From Siphonodentalium dalli (Eukaryota > Mollusca > Scaphopoda > Gadilida > Siphonodentaliidae): a stretch of 64,000 nt of DNA. Shown piece after piece: positions 12,219 through 54,707 of the stretch (position 1 is the first letter of the stretch; each line of letters starts with the position of its first letter). The stretch covers positions 189,831,794 through 189,895,793 of the forward strand of contig CP136064.1 of assembly GCA_032622095.1 (NCBI GenBank). The letters are read 5' to 3'. The notes beneath the pieces are model-generated. The model did not search any database. It was not told where the DNA came from and saw only the letters and a list, made by a program, of their open reading frames with translations. The position numbers and the translations under genes were made by a program.

Positions 12219-13889
12219 GTTATAGTTCGGGAGCCCGCATATGTTCTATTTACACTTTTGCATACAAAAGGTTTGACCCCCTAAAGTTGGTACCAATAAT
12301 GGAACATTCTGAAAAACCGATTTCTTAAGTTGCGCATTCCTGGGGTTTAGGGGCTGCTGAACCCCAAAAAGTGCCAAAAATCACTTCTATTTACACTTCC
12401 GCGTACATCGATGAATTTTGGTTTGTTGATACTCCTAAGTGTACTGATTAAGAAAACACAACTTAAGAAAGGGATTTTCCTGGGGTTTTCAGATAAGAAA
12501 GGGTGTCCCATGCTGAACCCCAAAACGTGATTTTTCACTTTTTATTTACACTTTCGCGTACATCCATAATTTTTGGTCTCAAAGTACTTTGATATATACT
12601 AATTATAAAAACACAACTTAAGAAGCAACTTTTCCTGGGGTTTTAAGATAAGAAGGGGATCATCGGGTCACCCCTCAAAACGTAAAAAAATAACTTTTAT
12701 TTACATGATTGCATTCGTCCAACGTGTGTGTATGTGCGCACACCCCTGGAACGTTGCACTATTACAACCAATACATCCCTAAATCGATACGATCAACTTA
12801 AGAAATATATATTCATGTCGTTTTCTGATGAGAACGAGACTTGTTACCACCCCCCCCCCCCACAACTCGATCCATTTTCTAGAACTATAAGTGAGCCAGT
12901 TTTATGAAAATAATAGCTGGAAAATATAGTAAAATGTATACAAATGTATATATGGAACTGGTTGAGTAATGTAACTTTATGTTGTGTTTTGTATATTAAC
13001 TGATCATTGGAGCAATTAAATATGCAATTATTGGGGTCCTAACCCCTTCCGATCCCTCAAAAATTTGATTGTACAGAATGCGGTGTAAAATGTTACCCAA
13101 AGAAATCACAATTAGGATTCTAGTCATATTTCAACAAGAAATGAATAGAACTTTGTAATGTGAGTGAGGCATATAATTACCTATGCATATTCCAAATCAC
13201 TGGAAATAAAATTCTTACTTTGGGCTCAAAATGTGTTGATGTATAAAATTGGCCATTCTGCATTCTTTACATTGAATACTAACATGTCTGATGCACCATG
13301 GTTAATTGTTACTATTTTCACCACTGACATCGTCACAAATATTGGACTTTTCTCTAAAAAACTTGACATAAATATTGGCAAAAATTCAGTTTTCAGGTTT
13401 GGACCATTTTTTTCAGGTAAAATATAACTATCTTTGGATTGAAAGGTGTTTATTGTTTTGGTCTATCTTAAATGTGTCACACTACGGTTTTTATAGACCA
13501 AATCGCTCAAGATGGCTTCCAAAATGGCAACCAAATTTGTAAAATGCTAATTTTTTACATATATCCCGAACATTCTCTGCATTATACGAAAAGGTAGCAA
13601 ATTGTGACTCACTTGGTTATTATACGTGTTAGTTAATTAACTGACAACTACATGTTCTATTCCCAATTGTCCCAGTTCCGTGTGGGGCATGACAAATTCA
13701 TTTTAAAGTATGTAATTTTGCCGAGAACCTATTTTGGTGATTTTGGCCATATTTATTGAAAGGAAATGGGCAGAACTTTGAGACAGAACTGAGATGGACC
13801 ATACTCTTTGGCTATTCTGGTCCATTATGATAACAAAAATGTCTACAGGATACAGTGTGGATGCCAAGATCGTAGCCAGGGAGTTACTC

Positions 13890-15157
13890 TGTGATCATAT
13901 GTGAGGTGAATAGGTATACAGAGAGTTATTGTATGTCATGACTGACGTGAGTAGGGATACAATGAGTGACTATATGGTTATAAGTGGGTTGTCCACGGTA
14001 AGATGCATCTAGGTATACAGGGAGAGGTCATGGTCAGGTGTGAGGTGAATCGGTATGCATGGAGTGACTGTATGGTGTATGATTGTGTATATCCAGTACG
14101 GGTGCATCCGGTGTGCCTGTATGGTCATTAGTGTGGTGTATGGATATAGCTACATGGTCATCTATGTGTTGATTATGTATATATGGAGTGACTGTAAGGT
14201 CATGGGTTGGATGTACATGTGTTGTATGTATGATCATGGATGGGGTGTGTGGATAGGTAGGTAGGGAGTTTATGGTTACGGGTAATGTGTATAGGTATAC
14301 ATGGAATGACTGTACGGTCATGATTGAATATGAATACCTGGAGTTAGCTGGGTGGACATTATCGAGCGTGTGGGTACATAGGGGGTGTCCTTGTGGTAAC
14401 GGGTGGGATGTATATTTATATATATCGTATTATCATTGGTGGGTGTATAGGGCGTGTATGATTATACAGTGAATTGCTGAATTGTCATGTGTGAGGTGTA
14501 TATGCCAGTATGGATTGTTTGATTGGTCGTATGTGCGGGTTTTTTTGTATATCTGGAAGGGCTGAATGGCCATTAGTGAGGGTTACATGTATACATGGAG
14601 TGAATCTATGGTCTAGTGTGGGCTGCATATGTATATCGAGTGGTTATATGACTATGTGTGTCGAATAGGTATACATGTAGTGACTGTGTTGTTAATGGTG
14701 AGATGAGTACATGTAGGTATACAAGTAGTGACTGTATGATCATAAATGTATTGGACATATATACAGGGGGAGGCAGGCGTATGAGTATACATGTACCTGG
14801 TGTTCATGTTTGGTGACTCGTGTCGCTATAGTCATGTGTAGGTTATACCAGTACACACACGTGTTGCTTTATTGTCATGGGCGAGGGATATGTGTATATA
14901 GCGAGTGGCTATATGGCCATGGATGAGGTGCATATATACAGGTATACAGGGGATGACCTTATGGCCAACGGTGAGATGAGTCGGTATACATGGAGTGACT
15001 ATATGGTTATGGGTCATGTTTAGGAGTATACCCGGTGTGCCTGCATTGTAACGCGTGGATGTATGGTCATCCGTGGTCATGGGCCAGGTGTACACGTGGG
15101 TAACTATATTGTTATGTCTGTGGTGTTTATGTATATATGTAATGACTGTGTGATAAT
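13890..15157. repeat. Degenerate minisatellite of about 42 bp, left inner arm
   Basis: Repeated units follow the pattern GAGGTG(A)ATAGGTATACA(T)GGAGTGACTGTATGGTCAT, with spacing near 42 bp and much drift. The complement occurs in the right inner arm. Because 42 is divisible by three, several frames stay open through it on both strands and give histidine- and tyrosine-rich translations. These should not be read as genes. Confidence 0.8.
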
Positions 15158-15242
15158 GGGTGGCTATCGCTTTCCACGATATGACATAACCTCTCTATTG
15201 ATTAACATATCCTTGAGTTATTGTGGAAAGCGATAGCCACCC
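15158..15242. repeat. Central stem of the giant palindrome
   Basis: GGGTGGCTATCGCTTTCCAC at 15158-15177 is the exact reverse complement of 15223-15242. The two are separated by a 45-base loop. This is the axis of the whole structure. The diverged second palindrome has the related halves at about 44197-44206 and 44684-44702. Confidence 0.92.
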
Positions 15243-15910
15243 AAGGTACACATGCACAACCCACCCATTACCCCAGTCACTCCATATGTACATAAACACC
15301 ACACAAATGACAACATAGTCACCCACGTTATACACGTACATGTATTAGTACACCTGATCATACAGCCATACTTGGTTATACCCGTACATACCACAAATGA
15401 GATACAGCCACGAGTCACCATGCATGACCACCAGGTATACACCTACACCCGACCACTTAGTCACTCTGTGTATACATATTCACTACATTCACGATCATAC
15501 AGTCACTCATTGTATACATATTCACCTCACCATGGACCATACAGTCACTCATTGTATACATATTCACCTCACCATGGACCATACAGCCACTACATGTATA
15601 CATATTCGACATACCCATGACCATGGAGTCAATCCAGGTATATATATGCACATCACCAATGGTGAGCCCTTCCAGATATACCAATATCCGCACATACGAC
15701 CATTCATAAGTTCCATACTTGCCATACTCATACACGCCATCCATGATAATAAATCTACTCCCCATACACCACCAATGATAACACATCCACAACATATATA
15801 AATATACGTCCCACCGTTACCAACATGGCACTCCCTATATACCCACACATCATTCATGACCATACAATAACTCCCTGTATACCTATTATCCTCATCTATG
15901 ATCATAACTC
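15243..15910. repeat. 42-bp minisatellite, right inner arm
   Basis: The clearest tandem units are at about 15465-15610. Two consecutive 42-bp units there are identical (CACTCATTGTATACATATTC...), and others are diverged. Overlapping frames at 15252-15620 and 15397-15801 arise from the repeat and encode a 14-residue period rich in His, Tyr and Ser. Confidence 0.82.
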
Positions 15911-17038
15911 CCTGGCTACCATCGTGGCTTATCCAGTTGATAATTTTTTATCATAATGGGCCAGAATACCCACATATAATGGTTCATCTCAGTTTAGTCT
16001 CAAAGTTCTGCCCATTTCCTTTCAATAATATGGTTCTCCGCAAAATTCCATACTGCAACTTTAAAATGAATTTGTCATGCCCCATACGGAACTGGGACAA
16101 ACATAATAGAACGTAGTTGTCAGTTAATTACATTGTAACTAACACGTACAATAACCAAGTGAGTCACAATTTGCCACTTTTTTTTTCGGATAACGCAGAG
16201 AATAATGTTCGGGATATCTTAACTTTTAGCTTTTTACAAATTTGGTTGCCATTTTGGAAGCCATCTTGAGCAATTTAGTCTATAAACACCGTAGTGTGAC
16301 ACATTTAAGATAGACCAAAACAATAAACACCTTTCAATCCAAAGATAGTTGTATTTTACTTGAACGAATGGTCGAACCCTGAAAAGTGAATTCTTATGTC
16401 CAATATTTCTGGTAAATGTCAGTGGTGACAAACTGACAATAGTAAATATGATCCATGGTGCATCAGACATGTTAGTATACAATGTATAGAAAACAGATTA
16501 GTCAATTTTGTACATCAACCACAACTTGTAAGCGATTGCAGGACACCCTGGGGCAATATTTACCATTTTCCATATTTTAGCGGCCATTTTCGCAGCCATT
16601 TTGAGCCAAGGTAAGATTTATGGTTCCAGAGATTTGGAATATTCATAGGTAATGATATGCCTCACTTAAATTACAATTTTCTTTTCATTTCTTGTTGAAA
16701 TATGACTAGAATCCCAATTGTGTTTTTTTTTTTAATTTTGTACTGCGTTTTGTAAAATACAATTTTTGAGGGATCGGAAGGGGTTAGGACCCCAATAATT
16801 GCATATTTAATTGCTCCAATGATCAGTTAATATAAAAAACACAAAATAAAGTTGCACTACTCAACCAGTTCCAAACAGCATGAATTGATCTAGAAGTTAT
16901 TTGTGAAAAAATGTCATATTTTCAACTTCCGGCAGCCATTTTGGCGGCCATCTTGAATGGTGAGTTTCAATTTTGGCCTAAAAAAGTGTCATTATGTCTT
17001 AGCTTCACGAAAATATATACATTTGTATACATTTGACT

Positions 17039-18906
17039 AGATTTTCCCGCTATAATTTTCATAAAACTGGCTCACTTATAGTTCTAGAAAATGGATCGTG
17101 TTGTGGGGGGGGGGGGGGGGGGGGTAACAAGTCTCGTTCTTATCAGAAAACGACATGAATATATATTTCTTAAGTTGATCGTATCGATTTAGGGATGTAT
17201 TGGTTGTAATAGTGCAACGTTCCATGGGTGTACGCACATACACACACGTTGGACGAATGCAATCATGTAAATAAAAGTGATTTTTTTACGTTTTGAGGGG
17301 TGACCCGATGACCCCCTTCTTATCTTAAAACCCCAGGAAAAGTTGCTTCTTAAGTTGTGTTTTTATAATTAGTATATATCAAAGTACTTTGAGACCAAAA
17401 ATTATGGATGTACCCGAAAGTGTAAATAAAAAGTGAAAAATCACGTTTTGGGGTTCAGCATGGGACCCCCTTTCTTATCTGAAAACCCCAGGAAAATCCC
17501 TTTCTTAAGTTGTGTTTTCTTAATCAGTACACTTAGGAGTATCAACAAACCAAAATTCATCGATGTACGCGGAAGTGTAAATAGAAGTGATTTTTGGCAC
17601 TTTTTGGGGTTCAGCAGCCCCTAAACCCCAGGAATGCGCAACTTAAGAAATCGGTTTTTCAGAATGTTCCATTATTGGTACCAACTTTAGGGGGTCAAAC
17701 CTTTTGTACGCAAAAGTGTAAATAGAACATATGCGGGCTCCCGAACTATTATCTTTTAGATATTCCATCCACGGTCACATAAAGAGCGTTCACTTCTGAG
17801 TCCAACGGAGTCAGTTACAATCTGTTGATAAATGTCTACCAATATACCACGACAGTGAGTTTTTCTGGTGGGATATAAAGTCCGCATATCAGTATTCTAT
17901 GTATTTATCGAGCCATATTTCAAAGCCACATGGCGTTTTGATGTTGAGACCCATATTGTACCTAGACATGTTCGTTTGTGTCACATTCCCGTCCGGTTCT
18001 GGGGATCAAAATAGTTTAAATTTACAGGGGCCGATTTTACACCAAATATGTCTAACTGACTATTCAGCTTTCCAGACAAGAGAAAAAAGAAAAATACTTG
18101 CATTCACATTTGTGTGACACAGGCATCGTGAAACTCCACATATGAATCCATCAGTTTTAAAGATGGATTATCTCTTCATATAACAAATTTGAATAGTTGC
18201 CTGGGTATAAAATAATAACTATGAATTGAAGACCCCTCTCCGGAAACGCTTCTATCAATTAAAGATACGGGCGGCGTTGGCGGTGGGTATGCTGTTAAAA
18301 TATTCAGCTCCGTCAAAAACCGCCATAAACAGAAAGAATAGTAAAATATAGACATACCTTGTTCTTATACCAATCAGATATATGGCATAAACAGTACGTT
18401 ATTGTCAAATGTTTTTCCTTTGGTATGTAAACAAAAGCAAAAAAAAAAACCTTACAGAATCTGGCTTTTGTTTAGATCCGGATATGGTAAACATAAAGAG
18501 TGTTATTTGTTACTGTTTTCCTGATATGGAAATAATAAAGAGCGTTTATATCATTTGTGTGTGATTAACCGGACAGGGGTCTTCGATTCACATGTAATAT
18601 TGTATACCCCGGTAACTACACATGTCTACAAAGAGATAGACCATCTTTAAGCTGAAAACGAGTACATTGAAACAAACTTCAGCCCAAAATTTACTCGACG
18701 GGGAAGTCGTGTGAGATTGCCGATAATAATTTAGGAACTTTCTTTTTATCTACTGATTTTGGGAAACGGAAGCATGGACGCTCTTTATCAGGACCGATTA
18801 TTGACAATATAATGATTGTAAGTCTCTGTTTCTCAATATCCGTTATGTACTGATTTGGATTTTGGATACAGTGAGAATAAAGCATAATATATCTGCCTAC
18901 AAAATA
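17039..18906 (+). repeat. Tandem duplication, unit 1 (1.87 kb)
   Basis: Unit 1 starts AGATTTTCCCGCTATAATTT and is repeated almost base for base from 18907. The offset is 1868 bp before the poly(G) tract and 1866 bp after it. Visible differences are the tract length (20 versus 18 G) and a few substitutions and indels (for example near 17411/19277 and 18885/20750). The first 0.7 kb is the right outer arm of the giant palindrome. Confidence 0.92.
18161..18646. mobile_element. 486-bp TTAA element (AGATGG ends), copy 1
   Basis: Flanked by TTAA at 18157-18160 and 18647-18650. Termini are AGATGGATTATCTCTT and its imperfect complement AGAGATAGACCATCT. Inverted similarity continues inward to GAAGACCCCTCTCCGG / CCGGACAGGGGTCTTC. 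The interior carries variants of the ATAAAGAGCGTTT motif at about 18492 and 18534. There is no transposase. TTAA plus AG ends again suggests a Kolobok-like origin (inference). Confidence 0.72.
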
Positions 18907-20770
18907 AGATTTTCCCGCTATAATTTTCATAAAACTGGCTCACTTATAGTTCTAGAAAATGGATCGTGTTGTGGGGGGGGGGGGGGGGGGTAACAAGTCT
19001 CGTTCTTATCAGAAAACGACATGAATATATATTTCTTAAGTTGATCGTATCGATTTAGGGATGTATTGGTTGTAATAGTGCAACGTTCCATGGGTGTACG
19101 CACATACACACACGTTGGACGAATGCAATCATGTAAATAAAAGTGATTTTTTTACGTTTTGAGGGGTGACCCGATGACCCCCTTCTTATCTTAAAACCCC
19201 AGGAAAAGTTGCTTCTTAAGTTGTGTTTTTATAATTAGTATATATCAAAGTACTTTGAGACCAAAAATTATGGATGTACGCGAAAGTGTAAATAAAAAGT
19301 GAAAAATCACGTTTTGGGGTTCAGCATGGGACCCCCTTTCTTATCTGAAAACCCCAGGAAAATCCCTTTCTTAAGTTGTGTTTTCTTAATCAGTACACTT
19401 AGGAGTATCAACAAACCAAAATTCATCGATGTACGCGGAAGTGTAAATAGAAGTGATTTTTGGCACTTTTTGGGGTTCAGCAGCCCCTAAACCCCAGGAA
19501 TGCGCAACTTAAGAAATCGGTTTTTCAGAATGTTCCATTATTGGTACCAACTTTAGGGGGTCAAACCTTTTGTACGCAAAAGTGTAAATAGAACATATGC
19601 GGGCTCCCGAACTATTATCTTTTAGATATTCCATCCACGGTCACATAAAGAGCGTTCACTTCTGAGTCCAACGGAGTCAGTTACAATCTGTTGATAAATT
19701 TCTACCAATATACCACGACAGTGAGTTTTTCTGGTGGGATATAAAGTCCGCATATCAGTATTCTATGTATTTATCGAGCCATATTTCAAAGCCACATGGC
19801 GTTTTGATGTTGAGACCCATATTGTACCTAGACATGTTCGTTTGTGTCACATTCCCGTCCGGTTCTGGGGATCAAAATAGTTTAAATTTACAGGGGCCGA
19901 TTTTACACCAAATATGTCTAACTGACTATTCAGCTTTCCAGACAAGAGAAAAAAGAAAAATACTTGCATTCACATTTGTGTGACACAGGCATCGTGAAAC
20001 TCCACATATGAATCCATCAGTTTTAAAGATGGATTATCTCTTCATATAACAAATTTGAATAGTTGCCTGGGTATAAAATAATAACTATGAATTGAAGACC
20101 CCTCTCCTGAAACGCTTCTATCAATTAAAGATACGGGCGGCGTTGGCGGTGGGTATGCTGTTAAAATATTCAGCTCCGTCAAAAACCGCCATAAACAGAA
20201 AGAATAGTAAAATATAGACATACCTTGTTCTTATACCAATCAGATATATGGCATAAACAGTACGTTATTGTCAAATGTTTTTCCTTTGGTATGTAAACAA
20301 AAGCAAAAAAAAAAACCTTACAGAATCTGGCTTTTGTTTAGATCCGGATATGGTAAACATAAAGAGTGTTATTTGTTACTGTTTTCCTGATATGGAAATA
20401 ATAAAGAGCGTTTATATCATTTGTGTGTGATTAACCGGACAGGGGTCTTCGATTCACATGTAATATTGTATACCCCGGTAACTACACATGTCTACAAAGA
20501 GATAGACCATCTTTAAGCTGAAAACGAGTACATTGAAACAAACTTCAGCCCAAAATTTACTCGACGGGGAAGTCGTGTGAGATTGCCGATAATAATTTAG
20601 GAACTTTCTTTTTATCTACTGATTTTGGGAAACGGAAGCATGGACGCTCTTTATCAGGACCGATTATTGACAATATAATGATTGTAAGTCTCTGTTTCTC
20701 AATATCCGTTATGTACTGATTTGGATTTTGGATACAGTGAGAATAAAGCACATATATCTGCCTACAAAAT
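18907..20770 (+). repeat. Tandem duplication, unit 2 (1.87 kb)
   Basis: Near-identical direct copy of 17039-18906, ending CCTACAAAAT at 20770. The join between units is clean, with no extra bases. The similarity implies a recent duplication, local gene conversion or an assembly duplication. The repeated short frames in both units are identical only because the DNA is. Confidence 0.92.
20027..20512. mobile_element. 486-bp TTAA element (AGATGG ends), copy 2
   Basis: Same element as 18161-18646, carried along by the tandem duplication, so it is not an independent insertion. Flanking TTAA is preserved. Confidence 0.72.
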
Positions 20771-24745: not shown

Positions 24746-24749
24746 TTAA

Positions 24750-25244
24750 AGACACGGTTGGCCTTGGCGGTGGGTATCCTGTGAAAATATCTCCACCCGT
24801 CAAAAAACCGCCACAAACAGAAAGAACATAAAAATGTAGATAGACTTTGTCCGTATACAAATAAGAAATATCGCATAAACAGTATGTTATGGTCATATGT
24901 TTGACCATTGTTATGTAAACAAAAGCATAAAAAGTAACTTTTCTGGTGTTTGTTTATATTATGATGGTAAACATAAAGAGCGTTCTTTGTTGGTGAATAC
25001 CTGATATGGAACTAATAAAGAGCGTTTATGCCATTTGTGTGTGATTAGCCAGTAGCATTGTGCTGTCTTCTGTAACACAATCAGGCTCTTGCTTAGGTAA
25101 AATATAGTAGGTCTTTATGATAACATGCTGTTTACGCGATGGTCATGGTGTATATGAACGAAACTGTATGCGTTTTAATGTTTTTCTGTTTACGGTGTTT
25201 GGAACAAATATGAATATTTTCGACAATTAAGGCCGCACGTGCCT
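24750..25244. mobile_element. 495-bp TTAA element with two ATAAAGAGCGTT motifs
   Basis: Bounded by TTAA (24746-24749 and 25245-25248), with imperfect ends AGACACGGTTGGCCTTGGCG and AGGCACGTGCGGCCTTAATT. An inverted copy lies at about 44229-44667, and part of the interior (GCGGTGGGTAT...GTAAACAAAAGCA) is shared with 18161-18646. Motif copies are at about 24973-24985 and 25015-25027. Non-coding. Confidence 0.68.
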
Positions 25245-36237: not shown

Positions 36238-36888
36238 ATTTTGAAGACCTCTGTCTGTTTGTTTGTCTGTCTGTCTGTCTGTATGTTTGTCTGTATGTTT
36301 GTCATTAATACAAATCTACGATTCTCGACCGATCGGGACGAAACTTGGTACGTGTGTGTAGTTTGACCAGGCGGTGGACGTTGTCGTATTGGCGAGCCCG
36401 TGCGACGCCCGTGCAGCGCATGCGCAGACGAGATCTCGGAAACGGGTGGAGCTATCGACTTGAAATTTGGTATGTGAATGTATCCTGCCCCGGATACGAA
36501 TTTTATCGGGTCGCCGAGCCCGTGCGACGCCAGCTTCGCGCATGCGCAGACCAGATCTCGGAAACGGGTGGAGCTAACGACTTGAAATTTGGTATGTGAA
36601 TGTATCTTGCCCCGGATATGAATTTTATCGGGTCGCCGATCTCGTGCGACGCCAGATTCGCGCATGCGCAGACGAGATATCGGGAACGGGTGGAGCTATC
36701 GACTTGAAATTTGGTATGTGAATGTATCCTGCCCCGGATACGAATTTTATCGGGTCGCCGAGCCCGTGCGACGCCAGCTTCGCGCATGCGCAGACCAGAT
36801 CTCGGAAACGGGTGGAGCTAACGACTTGAAATTTGGTTTTTGAATAGCCCGGATGAATAGCCCGGACAACGTCGGGCTCATCGGCTAG
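36238..36888 (+). mobile_element. Helitron-like unit H0 (plus) with 122-bp tandem repeats
   Basis: Starts A|TCTCATATATATTTTGAAG, runs through a (TCTG)n microsatellite (about 36244-36300), and ends with the hairpin CCCGGACaacGTCGGG and CTAG at 36885-36888. The body holds four tandem units (starts at 36394, 36516, 36638 and 36760) of exactly 122 bp. Each contains CGTGCGACGCC, GCGCATGCGCAGAC and ACTTGAAATTTGGTATGTGA. Minus-strand frames that repeat with this unit are not genes. Confidence 0.68.
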
Positions 36889-37510
36889 TCTATTATATAT
36901 TTTGGAAGATCTGTGTGTCTGTGTGTCTGTCTGTGTGTCTGTCTGTGTGTTCGCGATGAACTCAAAAACGGCCCACCCGATTTCGATTAAACTTGGTATG
37001 TGGGGGTATTTTCGGCCGGGGACGAACATAAGCATATTAATTTGTCCGTGCGACGTGACCTTGACCTTGAAATCGGGTCATTTCAAGGTCAAACGCCCGA
37101 ATATCACGGGATTTCGATGAAACTTGGTATGTGGGGGTACTTTCTTATGGCGAGTCTCATAAGCATATTCATTTGCCCGTGCGTCGTGACATTGACCTTG
37201 AAATCGGGTAACTTCAAGGTCAAATCGCCAATTTTGATGGGATTTCGACGAAATTTGATACGTGGGGCTAGTTTTGTCCACTGATTGTTTTGGATGGGTC
37301 CAGTCATGACCCCGACCAGACCTTGACCTTCAAAATGATCAATTCAAGGTCAAATCGGGTAAAACCGGATGGATTTCGACGGGCACGTTTGTCGGGTACT
37401 TTTGTCCGGGCAGTGTTTTTGAACTGGTCAAATCGTGACCCCACTTGACCTTGACCTTCAAAATGGACAATTCAAGGTCAAAGCCCGGACGAAGTCGGGT
37501 CACCTTCTAG
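36889..37510 (+). mobile_element. Helitron-like unit H1 (plus)
   Basis: Starts TCTATTATATATTTTGGAAG directly after the CTAG of H0. Then come a (TGTC)n tract, TTCGCGATGAACTC, three diverged modules with GATTTCGA(T/C)GAAA(C/T)TTG, and an end hairpin CCCGGACgaaGTCGGG with CTAG at 37507-37510. It contains at least seven exact TCAAGGTCA/TGACCTTGA sites. Non-coding. Confidence 0.72.
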
Positions 37511-38131
37511 TCTATTATATATTTTGGAAGATCTGTTTGTGTGTCTGTGTGTCTGTGTGTGTGTCTGTGTGTTCGCGATGAACTCGAAAACGGTCGAGCC
37601 GATTTCGATGAAACTTGGTATGTGGGGGTATTTTCTGTCGGGAAGTGGCATAGGCCTATTAATTTGCCCGTGCGACGTGACATTGACCTTTAAATCGGGT
37701 CATTTCAAGGTCAAACGCTCGAATATCACGGGATTTCGATGAAACTTGGTATGTGGGGGTAATTTCTTATGGCGAGTCTCATAAGCATATTCATTTGCCC
37801 GTGCGACGTGACATTGACCTTGAAATCGGGTCAATTCAAGGTCAAATCGCAAAATTTTATGGGATTTCGACGAAATTTGATACGTGGGGTTACTTTTGTC
37901 CACTGTGTGTTTTGGACGGGTCAAATCGTGACCCCAACCTGACATTGACCTTCAAAATGATCAATTCAAGGTCAAATCGGGTAAAACCGGATGGATTTCG
38001 ACGGGCACGTTTGTCGGGTACTTTTGTCCGGGCAGTGATTTGGACTGGTCAAATCGTGACCCCACTTGACCTTGACTTTCAAAATGGACAATTCAAGGTC
38101 AAAGCCCGGACGAAGTCGGGTCACCTTCTAG
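37511..38131 (+). mobile_element. Helitron-like unit H2 (plus)
   Basis: Direct tandem copy of H1 (621 bp), with the same TC start, hairpin and CTAG end. The 199-codon frame at 37753-38352 spans the H2/H3 boundary and is an artefact of a repeat with few stops. Confidence 0.72.
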
Positions 38132-39615: not shown

Positions 39616-40547
39616 ACAAGCGATACAGGGATTTGGCAGTAAGCCCATATGCCATTTCCGCGATATAAAAATTACTTCATGATTTGTTTTTGGTCTCAAT
39701 AATGAATTGTCCGCTCCACAAACACCCGCCAGCATACCCGTGTCTGATCACTGCAGGTCCACTCCCACACACTACATACTCTTGCTATGTGAATGGGAGA
39801 GCACTCTTATTTGTTTTCACTACTCCTTAGATGAGTTATGTATATCAGTTCGTGATGGTGCTCAGTAAAATCATTTGGTTCTATCTGTGAACGTTTGTAG
39901 TGAAATGAAAATGACTGCATTTTCACTGTATACGTAAAGTTAACCGATCCATTAAACAAAGTGTTCACATTTAATGTCCTATTAAGACCGACAAGACAGT
40001 TAATGGAAAATTGACTTTCGTTGCACCCCGGGGGGGGGGGGGGTCAAAGGTTTTTTGGTGTCTATGGAAAGCTTATAGCACCAGGAAAAAAATTTGTCTT
40101 GTTGGCCTTGACAAAAAGTGTCCGTTCGGCCGCTAGGGGGCGTAATCCAAGATGGCCGCCAATATTCCCGCCAAAATAGGAAATCATAGATGGGAAAAGA
40201 CTGTGTGTCAATCAAAACGGGTTTTGCCGCCAATTGAGTTTCATGAAACATTTTAAACACATAAACAAACATTTAAGACATTAAAGTGCTGTAAATAAAG
40301 AGCATTTTATGATTTTATATGATGGGAGTTGTTGGGTTTTTGTGCTTTCTTGCACCTTAATATGACAGTCTGGGAGCTAATGGCGGTACCCTTGCACCCC
40401 AATGGGAGTTAACTGTACCCCACCCATTTTGTTCTTTATTATGTCCTTCAACTTTCTTTTAATGTTAACAAGAACAAAAAGTGGCCGTATAGACTCCAGA
40501 CAAGATGGCGGCCATGATGGCCGCCGTTTTTCAGACCAGACCCCAAG
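39616..40547. other. No recognised gene; G14 tract
   Basis: Poly(G) lies at 40030-40043. From about 40130, GCTAGGGGGCG and AAGATGGC(C/G)GCC motifs suggest old repeat sequence related to the following palindrome. Confidence 0.4.
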
Positions 40548-41172
40548 TCAGTTTGATGCAAATTATAGCTGGAAACTCTAGTAAAATGTATACTAATGTA
40601 TATATTTTCGTGAAGCTAGGACACAATGACACTTCGATAGGGCAAAATTGAAACTCCCAATCCAAAATGGCTGCCAAAATGGCCACCGAAAGTTGAAAAT
40701 ATGACATTTTTTCACTTACATCTTCTAGATCAGTTTATTTTGTTTGTAAATGGTTGAGAAATGAGACTTTATTTTGTATTTTATATATTAACTGATCATT
40801 GGAGCAATAAAATATGAAATTACTGGGCTCCTAGCCCCGTCCGATCCCTCAACAATTCGATTTTACAGAATGCGGTATTAAATTTCACAAAAAATCACAA
40901 TTGGGATTCTAGTCATATTTCTACAAGAAATAAACAGAAATTTGTAATGTAAGTGAGGCATATCATTACCTATGAATATTCCAACTCATTGGAACCAAAA
41001 TTGTTACTTTGGCTCAAAATGGCTGCCAAAAAGACCGTCAAAATATGGGAAATGGTAGATACTGCCTCAGCGTGCCCTGCAATCGCTTACAAGTTGTGGT
41101 TGATGTATACAATTGGCTATTCTGTCTTCTATAATTGAATACTGAATACTGATGCACCATGGTTTATTGTTA

Positions 41173-42128
41173 TGTGCGCTCGCGCAACAGTATGGCGATC
41201 AGACATATTCGTACGTTGGTGTCACCCTACTCCGTTTCACTCCATGACGTCACCAAATACGGCGTAAAACCTCGTGGCGTTCTGAAATTTTTACTGTGCC
41301 GCGTTTTTGCTATGTTTATTTTATGTGTTGTTTTCGATTATTTGTTTGTCGCCGATATCGCCATTTGTCGGGATTCCCTGTTTCTATATTTAAAACTGGC
41401 ATGCTCGTAGTGAGCCTCGATTTCGATTTTTTCTCCCAGGTCAAAATACGTCAGAGTTATGACAAAAATAGATCGACCTACATTTTCTCCATCAGAACTC
41501 TACATCAAAGAGTCTATAGACTATAGATAATTGGGAAGTTTTATCATTTTTGGTTCGTGCGAAGACCTCTTTTTATCGTGCGGGAAAAGAGAGACATTCA
41601 CAACGCGATTTCGTAATTCGACGCAATAGGCTGAATAGCATAACCTTCAGCCGAGTTCCGGGTCAAATACGACGAATGACGTAACACAAAACAAAACGCA
41701 TTTGTTGACACAAACACCGTTTGAAGAGTTTATTATTACATAAAATGATCGTTATTGATTAATTATTGATATTTATTGTTGCATATTGGCTGCTATCAAT
41801 ATTTACACAAATAGTATTAATTATTTCTTATAATTGCTCCTTTGGTCAACTTTGACTATCGGAAGATCAAAATCAAAATATGCCGCTGAAAAAAATGTAA
41901 TCGATATTAAAGTCTCATCCTTTCGGCAACGTGGAATTGGTTTTAATTACTTAAATGATTAATATAGTAATTTGCCTTTTATCTGTGATGAAATGAGAAA
42001 TGGTAATTGTCTTTTTTTGCTAACATTAAATTAAATTAAATAAATTAAGTAAAATACAGTGAAATTATTTTTTTAAATTATTGTTTATTACATTTTTGCG
42101 CACGTTGGCATCTCTCTGAGTGCATTCT
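41173..42128. other. Insertion of about 956 bp inside palindrome copy 2
   Basis: The palindrome sequence breaks after CATGGTTTATTGTTAT and resumes at AGTTACTATTGTCACCAC. The inserted DNA has a CpG-richer left part (GTGCGCTCGCGCAAC) and a very AT-rich right part. Frames at 41159-41410 and 41296-41526 lack domains; the first has two hydrophobic stretches. No inverted ends were seen. Confidence 0.5.
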
Positions 42129-42599
42129 AGTTACTATTGTCACCACTGACATTACCAGAAATATTGGAGTTTTCTCTCACAAACTTGTCAAAAAATATCG
42201 GCAAAAATTCACTTTTCAGGTCTGGATCATTTGTTCAAGTGAAATGTAACAATCTTTGATTTGAAAGGTGATTATTGTTTTGGTCTATCATAATTGTGTC
42301 ACACTACGGCATTAATAAACCATTTTCTCAAGATGGCAACCAAATTTGGTAATAAAATTAATTTCTTTTACATATATCCCGAATATTAATCTCTGCGTTA
42401 TCCGAAAAAGTTAGCAAATTCATTTTAAAGATGCAGTATGGAATTTTTCCGAGAACCTCTTTTGTGATTCTGGCCATATTATTGACAGGAAATGGGCAGA
42501 ACTTTGCGACGGAACTGACATAAAACACAATATGTGGCTATTCTGGCCCATTATGATAAAAATTGATCAACTGGGTACAGGGTGGATGCCAAGATGACA

Positions 42600-44190
42600 G
42601 CCAGTGAGTTACTGTTTGATCATTGGTGAGGTGAATAGGCATATAAGGATTGATTATATGGTTATGAGTGGGGTGTCCATGGTAAGATGTGTAGGTATTC
42701 AAGGAGTGATCGTGATCATGTGTGAGGTGAAACGGTATGCATGGAGTGACTGTATGGTGTATGGTTATATGTACCCAGTGTGGGTGTACCCGGTGTGGCT
42801 GTATGTCCATTGCTATGGTGTATGGACATAACTAGATAAGCTATATGGCCACCTGTGTATTGTTCATGTATATACATAGTGACTGTAAGGTCATGGGCGG
42901 GATTATGACAGGTGGGGTGTATATGTAGACATGTGCTGTATGTATGGCCATGGAGTGTGTGGATAAATCGGGAGCGATTTAATGGTTATGGGTAATATAT
43001 AGGTGTATATGTGTGCATGGAATGACTGTATGGTCATGTTTGAAGTGTATATACATGGAGTAAGCTGGATGGTCATTTGCTATGCGCGTGGGTATATAGG
43101 GCCTGTCATTCTGTTAAAGGGTGGGATGAATATTTACGCGCACCGCGTGTATAACTGGTGGCGAGATTCTATTTTCTCGTGGGCGCTTACATTATCAATG
43201 GGTGTTTTATTAGTTTTATTTATAGAATGGGCATTTTTGGGATGATTAAAAGTCAAACTCAGTGCGAGCTGGAGACAGAGTCCGTTAAAAGGTGTAGTTG
43301 GGGGATTTCAATTTCGTTTATTGTCGTTAATCAACGTTGATTAATTTTGATTTTTGGTTTGTGATAAACTATATGTCAATTACAAATAAAAGAAATTTCT
43401 GCAGCCCACTGGGGGTTGTGGTCGGAGACGGTCGAGTCGGCCGCCGGTTCGTTAATTAGGTGCTGGTTGTTATTGTTATTTTAACGGAATTCTGAGTTGG
43501 CCATTCGCAAAACCAATATATTTTATATTCTACAATTACATTCTTGGGTTTATAATATATGATCTTGAGCGCGTTACCATTTCTGACATTGGTTATATTG
43601 TTATATATGTCGTGGATGGATTATCATTGTGGGTGTGTAGGCAGTATATGTGTGATGATGGATGGCGTGCATGAGTATACAGTGAGTTGCTGAATTGTCA
43701 TGTGTGAGGTGTATATGCATGGAAGGTATGAGTGGTCGTGGTGCTGGTATTGGTATATTGGGAAGGGCTGAATGGCCATTGGCGATGTGTATATGTATAC
43801 CTGGATTGAATCTATGGTCATGGGTGGGCTGTATATGTATTTATTGAGTGGTTATATGACTATTGAGGTGCCGACTATGTATACAGGTAGTGACTGTATG
43901 GTCAATGTTGAGGTGAATAGGTATACAAGGAGTGACTTTATGATCCTGAATGTAGTGCATATGTATACAGAGAGTGACGATATGGTCATATGTCAGATAT
44001 ATGAGTATGCCTGATGTGCATGCACGGTGACTCGTGACTGTATGGTCATTTGTTGTGTGTACGGTATAACCAAGTATGGCTGTGTGGTCATGGGTCAGGT
44101 GTACGGCTATAAAGTGGGTGACTATATATTGTCATTTTTGTGGTGTTTCTGTGAGGTAATATGTGGGTTGTACATGTGAAACCTTGGGTG
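42600..44190. repeat. Minisatellite arm of palindrome copy 2
   Basis: Same degenerate GGTATACA...GAGTGACTGTATGGTCAT units as 13890-15157. It is interrupted at 43137-43615 by unrelated sequence that has no counterpart in the first copy. Confidence 0.72.
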
Positions 44191-44228
44191 TCTCTATCGC
44201 TTTCCAAAATAGCTCAAAGATATGTTAA

Positions 44229-44667
44229 AGGCAAGTGAGGCCTTAGTTGTCGAAAATATTCATATTTGTTCCAATCACCGTAAACAGAAAAACATTAACA
44301 CGCATACAGTTTCGTTCATATATACCATGACCATCGCATAAACAGCATGTTATCATAAAGACCTACTATATTTGACCTAAGCAATAGCCTGATTGTGTTA
44401 CAGAAGACAGCACAATGCTACTGGCTAATCACACACAAATGGCATAAACGCTCTTTATTAGTTACATATCAGGAATTCACCAACAAAGAACGCTCTTTAT
44501 GTTTACCATCGTAATATAAACAAACACCAGAAAAGTAACTTTTTATGCTTTTGTTTACATAACAATGGTCAAACAGATGACAATAACATACTGTTTATGC
44601 GATATTTCTTATTTGTATACGGACAAAGTCTTCTACATTTTGATGTCAGAGTTCTCCATCTTGGTGG
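44229..44667. mobile_element. Inverted copy of the 24750-25244 TTAA element
   Basis: Begins after TTAA (44225-44228) with AGGCAAGTGAGGCCTTA and follows the complement of 25244-24815 closely. The other end is truncated and eroded. It lies at the centre of palindrome copy 2, where the first copy has a 45-base loop. Motif AAACGCTCTTTAT is at about 44447-44459 and AACGCTCTTTATG near 44490. Confidence 0.7.
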
Positions 44668-44995
44668 TCTTTATGTACAATGGAGGAAAGCAATAGCCAC
44701 CCGTTACCACACAGCAACCCCATATATACATAATCACCACACAAATGACAATATAGTCACCCACCGTATACACGTACACCTGACCCATGACCATATAGCC
44801 ATACTTGGTTATACCCGTACACACCACAAATGACCATACAGCCACGAGTTACAATACATGAACACAGGGTATGATCCTACACACGACCCATAACCATATA
44901 ATCACTCCCTGTATACATATTCACCATGTTCATGAACATAAGTCAATCCCTGTATACCCATTCACCTCACCATTGGCCATACGGTCACCACCCTA

Positions 44996-46007
44996 CTAAG
45001 TATATACCTTTTATACACACCCATCAAGATGTATGGAGATAAATTTACTGAGTTACAAGACCTCAAAAATGGCATTTCGTCACGCGACCCCATGTCACAA
45101 AGCCAAATTTGACCAAGTCCATGTTATGGAACGCACATTTCATCGGCATATTTTTTCTCATTCTTTACCATAAATGGATGAAAAATTTGATTTATGTGCT
45201 CAAACCGGTAGGTTAACCACTTAATTAGTGAAAAAACACAAAATTATTATGTATTTTAACAAATAATTGATCCTAAAATCTGCTTTTTAGCTTATTTTGA
45301 AAATACGCCGAAAATGGGGGCTCCGAAATCTGAAAAACGACCATTTTTTTGGTACCGAAATGTCCATAACTCAAAAAATATTTGACGAATATTACAACGG
45401 TTTACGGTTCTGTGACCAGCATGGTGAGTTCTACAAAATAAGCTCAAAATTGAAAAAGATTAGTCCAATTTGAAATGTTCATGAACATCCCTAACCTAAG
45501 CAATGTGACAAAATCGCAAATATTTTGGGTCATTAATTCTATATTTTTTTTTAAACGGACACCTAAATCAAGGGCCAACAAGTGAGATTTTGATCAGAAC
45601 ATATCTTACTATCATATTAAGCAATAAAACCTTTGCCCCCCTTGGGGTGCAGCCAAAATTTTATTTATGCATTTTCACAGTTCTATCTCATGAACTATAT
45701 ATAAACATATCTATAAAGATAGGACGGTATAGTATTGCGGTTTTGCTAGAAATTGTGTCCCAGCCGGTTTATTGTAATCAATGTTCCTTACTATAGCTTC
45801 TAGTATTCTAGAAATACATCCACCGAAACTATATATGTCATTTACATATAACATATATAGCCATCTATACGGCGAATTAGCCTGTATATGTGTGTGTGAA
45901 TGAACACCACCTGGACCAGGCCGGTCTGGACCCGCCCGGACCGCCCTTGTTGTGTCTAGGTTGATATTAGTCATGTCGCCTTCGTGCCACTAGGAAGTCC
46001 TGACATA
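44996..46007. other. No recognised feature
   Basis: Unassigned AT-rich sequence. Short frames at 45590-45796 and 45711-45974 have no motif. Confidence 0.35.
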
Positions 46008-54096: not shown

Positions 54097-54707
54097 TCTA
54101 TTATATATTTTGGGAAATCTGTGTGTCTGTCTGTCTGTGTGTTCGCGATGGACTCGAAAACGGCCGAGCCGATTTCGATGAAACTTGTATGTGGGGATAC
54201 TTTCGGCCGGGGAGTGGCATGGGCATATTAATTTGCCTGTGCGACGTGACCTTGACATTGAAATCGGGTAATTTCAAGGTCGAACGCCGAGTATCACGGG
54301 ATTTCGATGAAAATTAGTGTCTAGGGATACTTTCGTATGGGGAGTGTCGTAAGCATATTCGTTTGCCCGTGCGACGTGACATTGACCTTGAAATCGGGTC
54401 AATTCAAGGTCAAATCGCGAATTTTGCTGGGATTTCGACGAAATTTGATACGTGCATGGGTTTACTTTTGTCCACTGAGTGTTTTGGACGGGTCGAGTCT
54501 TGACCCCGACCTGACCTTGACCTTCAAAATGATCAATTCGAGGTCAAATCGGGTAAAACCGGATGGATCTCGACGGGTACTTTTGTCCGGGTAGTGTTTT
54601 GGACCACCTGACCTTGACCTTCAAAATGGACAATTCAAGGTCAAATCGCGCAATTCGCCAAAAAGCAGAGGGGAAACAGCCCGGACGAAGTCGGGTCCAC
54701 CTGCTAG
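54097..54707 (+). mobile_element. Helitron-like unit H5 (plus)
   Basis: TC start after CTAG, CTGTCTG tract, TTCGCGATGGACTC, and modules as in H1-H3. The end hairpin is CCCGGACgaaGTCGGG with CTAG at 54704-54707, followed by T. It contains multiple TCAAGGTCA/TGACCTTGA sites. Non-coding. Confidence 0.7.

Follow-up and report, generated by a model that had tools for sequence, protein, structure and literature searches.

The 64,000-nucleotide stretch of contig CP136064.1 (assembly GCA_032622095.1) of the scaphopod Siphonodentalium dalli that was analyzed here, referred to as the window, raises the question of what kind of DNA a 5.5-kb palindrome represents, and of how arms of such length come to match at their ends. 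The original prediction for this locus described mirrored blocks around a central stem and compared them to foldback elements such as FB and Galileo. The analyses reported here indicate that the palindrome very probably belongs to a family of non-autonomous foldback DNA transposons present in high copy number, named family A, whose ends appear to have been re-matched by arm-to-arm conversion.

The family-A copy in the window is a palindromic element of 5,526 bp (positions 12223-17748) with termini TAGTTCGGGAGCCCG and CGGGCTCCCGAACTA, bounded on each side by TTA as its target site duplication (TSD; 12220-12222 and 17749-17751). The mirrored blocks were recovered as inverted repeats, with an outermost pair of 640 nt (12222-12861 and 17110-17749) that is 99% complementary, a further pair (12847-12953 and 17013-17119) at 94%, and middle and inner blocks at 85-94%. 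The left outer arm (12223-12953, forward strand) gives a 97.4% inverted match to 17013-17749 and contains two direct sub-repeats of ~155 bp (12385-12503 and 12540-12658) and a C-run at ~12850; its counterpart is the right outer arm (17013-17748, reverse strand). Further inside, the left inner arm (12953-13949, forward) has inverted matches on the right side of 88% (12953-13233) and 78% (13235-13949), and within the right inner arm (15846-16873, reverse) positions 15846-16519 pair with 13235-13949 at the latter value. Mirror identity in this copy is 97-99% in the outer arms and ~78% in the inner arms.

The degenerate 42-bp minisatellite predicted on each inner side was likewise confirmed by direct repeats and a Tandem Repeats Finder (TRF) period of 42. 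It occupies 13870-15157 on the left (forward; direct-repeat families D1, D3 and D5) and 15243-15930 on the right (reverse; TRF 15459-15658, families D6-D8), with opposite orientation on either side of the axis, where the GC skew also changes sign. At the axis itself, a 20-bp perfect stem is formed by 15158-15177 (forward, GGGTGGCTATCGCTTTCCAC) and 15223-15242 (reverse), as described previously. The outer arms had been taken as unique and turned out to be repetitive, with 1,005 terminus matches genome-wide and a third outer arm within 18907-20770. The latter segment (forward) is a tandem duplicate, at 99.6% identity, of 17039-18905, which comprises the right arm and its flank. This 1.87-kb duplication (17039-20770) has its left breakpoint within the right arm of the palindrome, and the second copy of arm and flank thus accounts for the third outer arm just beyond 12219-17748.

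Copies of family A were searched for in the whole genome (2.23 Gb in 9 contigs). The 33-bp terminus pattern TAGTTNGGGAGCCCGCATATGTTCNATTTACAC, with two positions left free, gave 1,005 matches, while its reversed control gave none. Pairing statistics rest on the first 100 sites, as listed, all on contig C1, amongst which 72 termini form 36 facing pairs with a median span of 6,067 bp and 28 are unpaired; 17 of the 36 pairs span 5.9-6.2 kb, and the window copy, at 5.5 kb, is rather short compared to the median. A separate element search returned 1,317 candidates, 40 of which were scored, and 20 stretches picked from the best scored were studied. Seventeen of these correspond to 16 core-bearing loci, and both inverted ends are present at 14 of the 16, some with inserts or deletions; the other two (L019 and L024) have one end only within the stretch. 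The mirror symmetry of other genomic copies, set beforehand as a test of the prediction, was thereby observed. The remaining three stretches (L013-L015) form a tandem array of the outer arm only, without the core.

Exact 3-bp TSDs were found at 19 of the 24 A elements tested (TAA in eight, ATA in three, TTA in two and six other triplets once each). The 24 elements include 15 of the 36 C1 pairs; loci L016 and L026 were omitted from the count because a mutated end was missed by the exact search. Shuffled pairing of the ends gave a mean of 4.0 matching TSDs and a maximum of 12, against the 19 observed. These duplications demonstrate past mobility of the elements.

An older related element, family B, was identified in the same window at 39983-45697, beyond what the original prediction had reported. 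It carries an inner arm and minisatellite core like those of family A, a different outer arm, and TAT on both sides. Its pieces match the A core at 69-86%, and its right arm shows little mirror match except for the last ~140 bp. Since the left terminus of this copy is degenerate (TAAGACC), the reading of family-B ends and TSDs leans on loci L052-L054, where homology starts at TAGTCCATGAGATAG. A search with the outer left arm of B produced 2,529 first-look candidates, and the 40 that were scored, including the window copy, showed 86-100% identity. Family C is represented by L055, an element of 5,131 bp that starts with TAGTCCGGGAGC, is flanked by ATA as its TSD, and shows 90% identity to A across 4.8 kb of core, with no match to A in its first 181 bp; its terminus has 767 genome matches. 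Amongst ten further C elements, drawn from listed pairs, seven have a 3-bp TSD (TAT in three, ATA in two, AAC and GGT), and a cross-element control gave 8 matches in 90. The three families have like cores and different outer arms, and a terminal pattern, TAGTYNNNGAG, is common to all of them, with a sixth base that varies among A copies. Homology of B to C starts at the second base of C, and from the sequences B looks like C plus an outer layer, or C like B trimmed to its inner end; the comparison fits either direction.

The start of A-C homology, at TAGTCAG, was also considered as a fossil terminus on the inner side ('D'), and the claim was dropped, as only L060 breaks at this boundary. The search for it gave 5 genome matches with flanking triplets of A and T only, and 4 of these were extracted for study; a degenerate C-like shell is present in L057 and L059, and ~20 bp of one in L058. 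Flanks were compared for 12 of 39 non-self matches, and all 12 had higher scores against the C shell (33-110) than against the A or B shells (14-24).

The axis hairpin is also a family feature. In all 14 A elements that were oriented, 45 nt of loop separate the stem halves, and the central 241 nt, folded as DNA, have a z score of -11.7, with none of 200 shuffles folding equally well. The exact-stem axis pattern has 335 and 336 matches on the two strands genome-wide (a perfect hairpin scores on both) and none in the control. The listed sites on C1 as far as 185.1 Mb number 31; for 26 of them a listed A terminus is found at a distance of 4 kb or less, the three with a 53-nt loop are inside or ~2 kb from listed C termini, and two fit neither. 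Left-right agreement in the 14 A elements is 265/280 (94.6%) in the stem versus 733/884 (82.9%) in the adjoining arms. The proposal that the stem is a specially conserved element was set aside, as higher conservation than that of the loop between copies was not established.

Family A is a foldback-type family by structure: long inverted terminal repeats form most of the element, tandem repeats occur within the arms, and independent copies are TSD-flanked (19/24 in A, 7/10 in C). The FB element of Drosophila melanogaster, which is Mutator-related, similarly has foldback arms with internal tandem repeats, and differs in its 9-bp TSD. The original prediction of an FB/Galileo-like element accordingly held with regard to a foldback-like mobile element with tandem repeats in its arms, and failed with regard to membership, since the 3-bp TSD excludes family A from both FB and Galileo. 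As far as the available portions of its description go, Galileo, of the P superfamily in Drosophila, shares very long, internally repetitive terminal inverted repeats (TIRs), many two-arm copies without an open reading frame (ORF), and a central region of one subfamily found within the TIRs of another, but has a 7-bp TSD and a known transposase (PMC3573991), whereas family A has a 3-bp TSD, no transposase that could be found, and forms one palindrome in its entirety. Tetris of Drosophila virilis, in the portions available, is likewise described as a non-autonomous foldback element with tandem repeats in its TIRs, but has a TSD of 8-10 bp and was assigned to Mutator by its authors (PMC4079207); the 8-10 bp TSD of FB/Mutator foldbacks is not seen in family A.

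No convincing coding frame was found in family A among the loci cut out and in 12 kb of the window. The longest frame, of 228 aa, looks repeat-derived, in agreement with the earlier remark that no transposase is visible. The one or two longest frames per locus resemble minisatellite, terminal-array or arm frames, as judged without protein-family comparison, and three ORFs of the window had no Pfam match above the cut-off. The pair of termini L049/L050, 10.9 kb apart, belongs to an A element interrupted by an insert of ~4.4 kb, with no frame longer than 153 aa.

With regard to the source of transposase, TSDs of 3 bp would agree with PIF/Harbinger as well as with Zator and AcademX (PMC4482050, PMC2213677, PMC10045372; statements here follow the portions of these sources that were available). 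It is quite possible, at somewhat less than even chance, that family A is a non-autonomous relative of a 3-bp-TSD superfamily such as Zator (with an ISAzo13-like transposase), AcademX (with a transposase that includes a nuclease) or a CMC group, whose TSD lengths of 3 bp, 3 or 4 bp (PMC10045372) and 2-4 bp (PMC4482050), respectively, are compatible with that observed. Against this stands the finding of no coding copy, in a search that lay outside the Academ and CMC profiles; the Zator profile PF07592 had no match in this genome, which is uninformative as the control genomes were equally silent. A PIF/Harbinger-type non-autonomous element of the PHIS group, with subterminal regions filled by variable number tandem repeats as in MtPH-A6-4 of Medicago truncatula, is a tentative candidate. 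The 3-bp TSD is shared with MtPH-A6-4 and is TAA or TTA in 10 of the 19 matched A insertions, and DDE transposases of PF13359 are abundant in the genome (910 candidates, of which 150 were scored as matches, a large number of these in open frames >400 aa). On the other hand, the matched TSDs are not of the TWA type in 9/19 A and 8/8 C insertions, the A terminus begins with T whereas A or G is the usual first base of PIF/Harbinger TIRs (PMC4482050), and two copies of the single PF13359 family compared (L073 and L074, 98.6% identical over 3.2 kb) have homology that starts at TATGCACT. MtPH-A6-4 differs further in that its family has putative autonomous elements, and the available portions of its description mention neither a 5-6 kb palindrome nor an axis hairpin.

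Evidence for arm-to-arm conversion was provided by identity profiles along the arms. The right arms of L009, L012, L027 and L028 align poorly (58.7-89.6%), and the profile with 11 left and 10 right halves from 14 A elements was preferred, with eight elements giving both halves. Same-side identity between A copies is 93-99% over the whole length. Left-right identity within the eight elements is 99% over the outer 300 columns, 98% to ~750 and 94-96% at 750-1,200, and deeper in falls to 84-92% at 1,200-2,100 and 80% at 2,100-2,250; in the minisatellite, where alignment is unreliable, values are 63-83%, apart from 90% in a single interval with sparse alignment. High same-side identity together with left-right identity falling inward indicates that the arms of the A source elements had diverged inside and not outside.

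This pattern was compared across families with four A elements and one C element. In columns 1-200 of the shared region, left-right identity within families (95.3 and 97.8%) is higher than same-side identity between families (92.3 and 93.5%) or that of A-left to C-right (93.6%). No uniform pattern is seen in columns 200-400, where left-right identity is 92.4 and 88.9% and same-side identity 90.4 and 92.4%, and in columns 400-1,200 the pattern is reversed, with 90.5-96.2% same-side and 86.2-91.8% left-right. Because the pattern crosses in this manner, the inner left-right divergence appears older than the A/C split, and the outer parts appear to have been matched later in each family, which fits arm-to-arm conversion starting from the ends. 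Additionally, the same diagnostic letter pair occurs at both ends in 17 of 36 A elements versus 7.6 expected, a value reached in 8 of 20,000 shuffles.

An unlikely alternative is that the outer arms represent a short foldback miniature inverted-repeat transposable element (MITE) of separate origin, with the core inserted at its centre, so that family A would be a nested composite and not a conversion product. Locus L029, a 1.17-kb derivative with two A outer arms back to back and its own TSD, CAA, would suit such a composite, as would the start of B homology at the second base of C. But L029 looks like a product of internal deletion, mirror copies and not direct repeats are found at the junctions, hence no inner TSD is visible, and simple nesting gives no left-right gradient continuing through the junction. 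The view that the palindrome, a classic form of assembly artefact, joins two haplotypes or a foldback read head to head can be practically dismissed despite the tandem duplicate adjoining the right arm, since the same palindrome and axis loop recur at many unrelated loci, 3-bp TSDs bound independent insertions elsewhere, and the inner arms in the window differ by ~22%, unlike those of a read foldback.

Several observations weigh against a foldback family with conversion-matched ends. A matching 3-bp TSD is absent from 5 of the 24 A elements (L021, L022, L027, L031/L032 and L033/L034) and 3 of the 10 C elements. The arm alignment near the axis suffers from the minisatellite, the comparison of families used four A elements and one C element with mixed columns 200-400, and the statistic on like ends may partly reflect common subfamily descent. 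No autonomous partner of family A was found: a search for the 15-bp A terminus with any base other than C after it returned 8 sites, each of them a mutated A terminus; of the 17 PF13359 matches on C1, the nearest to any listed terminus of A or C is 31 kb away; and the PF13359 family compared starts differently, as given above. Furthermore, intact structure is over-represented among the A copies studied because the best-scoring ones were taken (40 of 1,317 candidates scored).

For the foldback transposon with conversion-matched ends, a transposase supplied in trans would recognize the TAGTY...GAG ends, and the element would be excised and inserted by cut-and-paste with a 3-bp, mostly A/T-rich target duplication. 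The palindromic core would be old, its left and right arms having diverged before the A/C split, and the ends would have been re-matched by inter-arm conversion beginning near them, for example when a broken or excised end was repaired with the other arm as template. Such conversion could pass a new terminus from one end to the other, which may be why one kind of core is found inside the different outer arms of A, B and C. A more speculative and rather doubtful extension is that full palindromy is a survival strategy: as either arm can serve as template for repair of its counterpart and the axis hairpin is retained, the element could take up a new terminus and copy it end to end, switching its transposase source while keeping an old non-coding core.

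Inversions and other rearrangements can be driven by foldback elements, and the upkeep of matched, very long arms is rarely testable. In the present genome, end-anchored conversion becomes directly testable through hundreds of young copies, the gradient in left-right identity, and sister families with other ends. Recombination and conversion were already proposed for TIR exchange in Galileo, and the identity gradient and cross-family test add to that proposal as it stands in the available portions of the source (PMC3573991). No description of a palindromic family with 3-bp TSDs was found in the literature, in a search without sequence matching that had subscription journals and repeat databases outside its range.

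Transposon ends in tandem DNA, and loss of the core, are seen at L012, L013-L015 and L029. In L012 (8505-9000), the terminal ~33 bp of the element are repeated in tandem just outside the terminus, with 15 right-end matches, and this array is a minisatellite made from a transposon end. In L013-L015 (C8:67.01-67.04 Mb), eight outer-arm segments matching window positions 17238-17752 follow each other in one orientation at a spacing of 2.8-5.4 kb. Both arrays represent a possible path from transposon end to satellite, and may be compared to Tetris, whose TIR repeats seed satellite-like arrays according to the portion of the source available (PMC4079207). In L030 (408-1189), a 782-bp insert in an A arm begins with CTGGTTC, ends with GAACCAG and has TTAA on both sides, as for a TTAA-target transposon.

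Other repeats were also observed in the window. A short dispersed repeat with AGAGCG-type motifs occurs at 18343-18570, 24746-25050 and 44423-44641, with 79-81% identity to the copy at 18.3 kb; one copy is located at the axis in family B, where it makes the loop of the element larger. Tandem arrays with 122-bp and 130-131-bp units are located at 36393-36845, 36979-37274, 37601-37896 and 54171-54445, the first three of them near TCTG/TGTG simple repeats.

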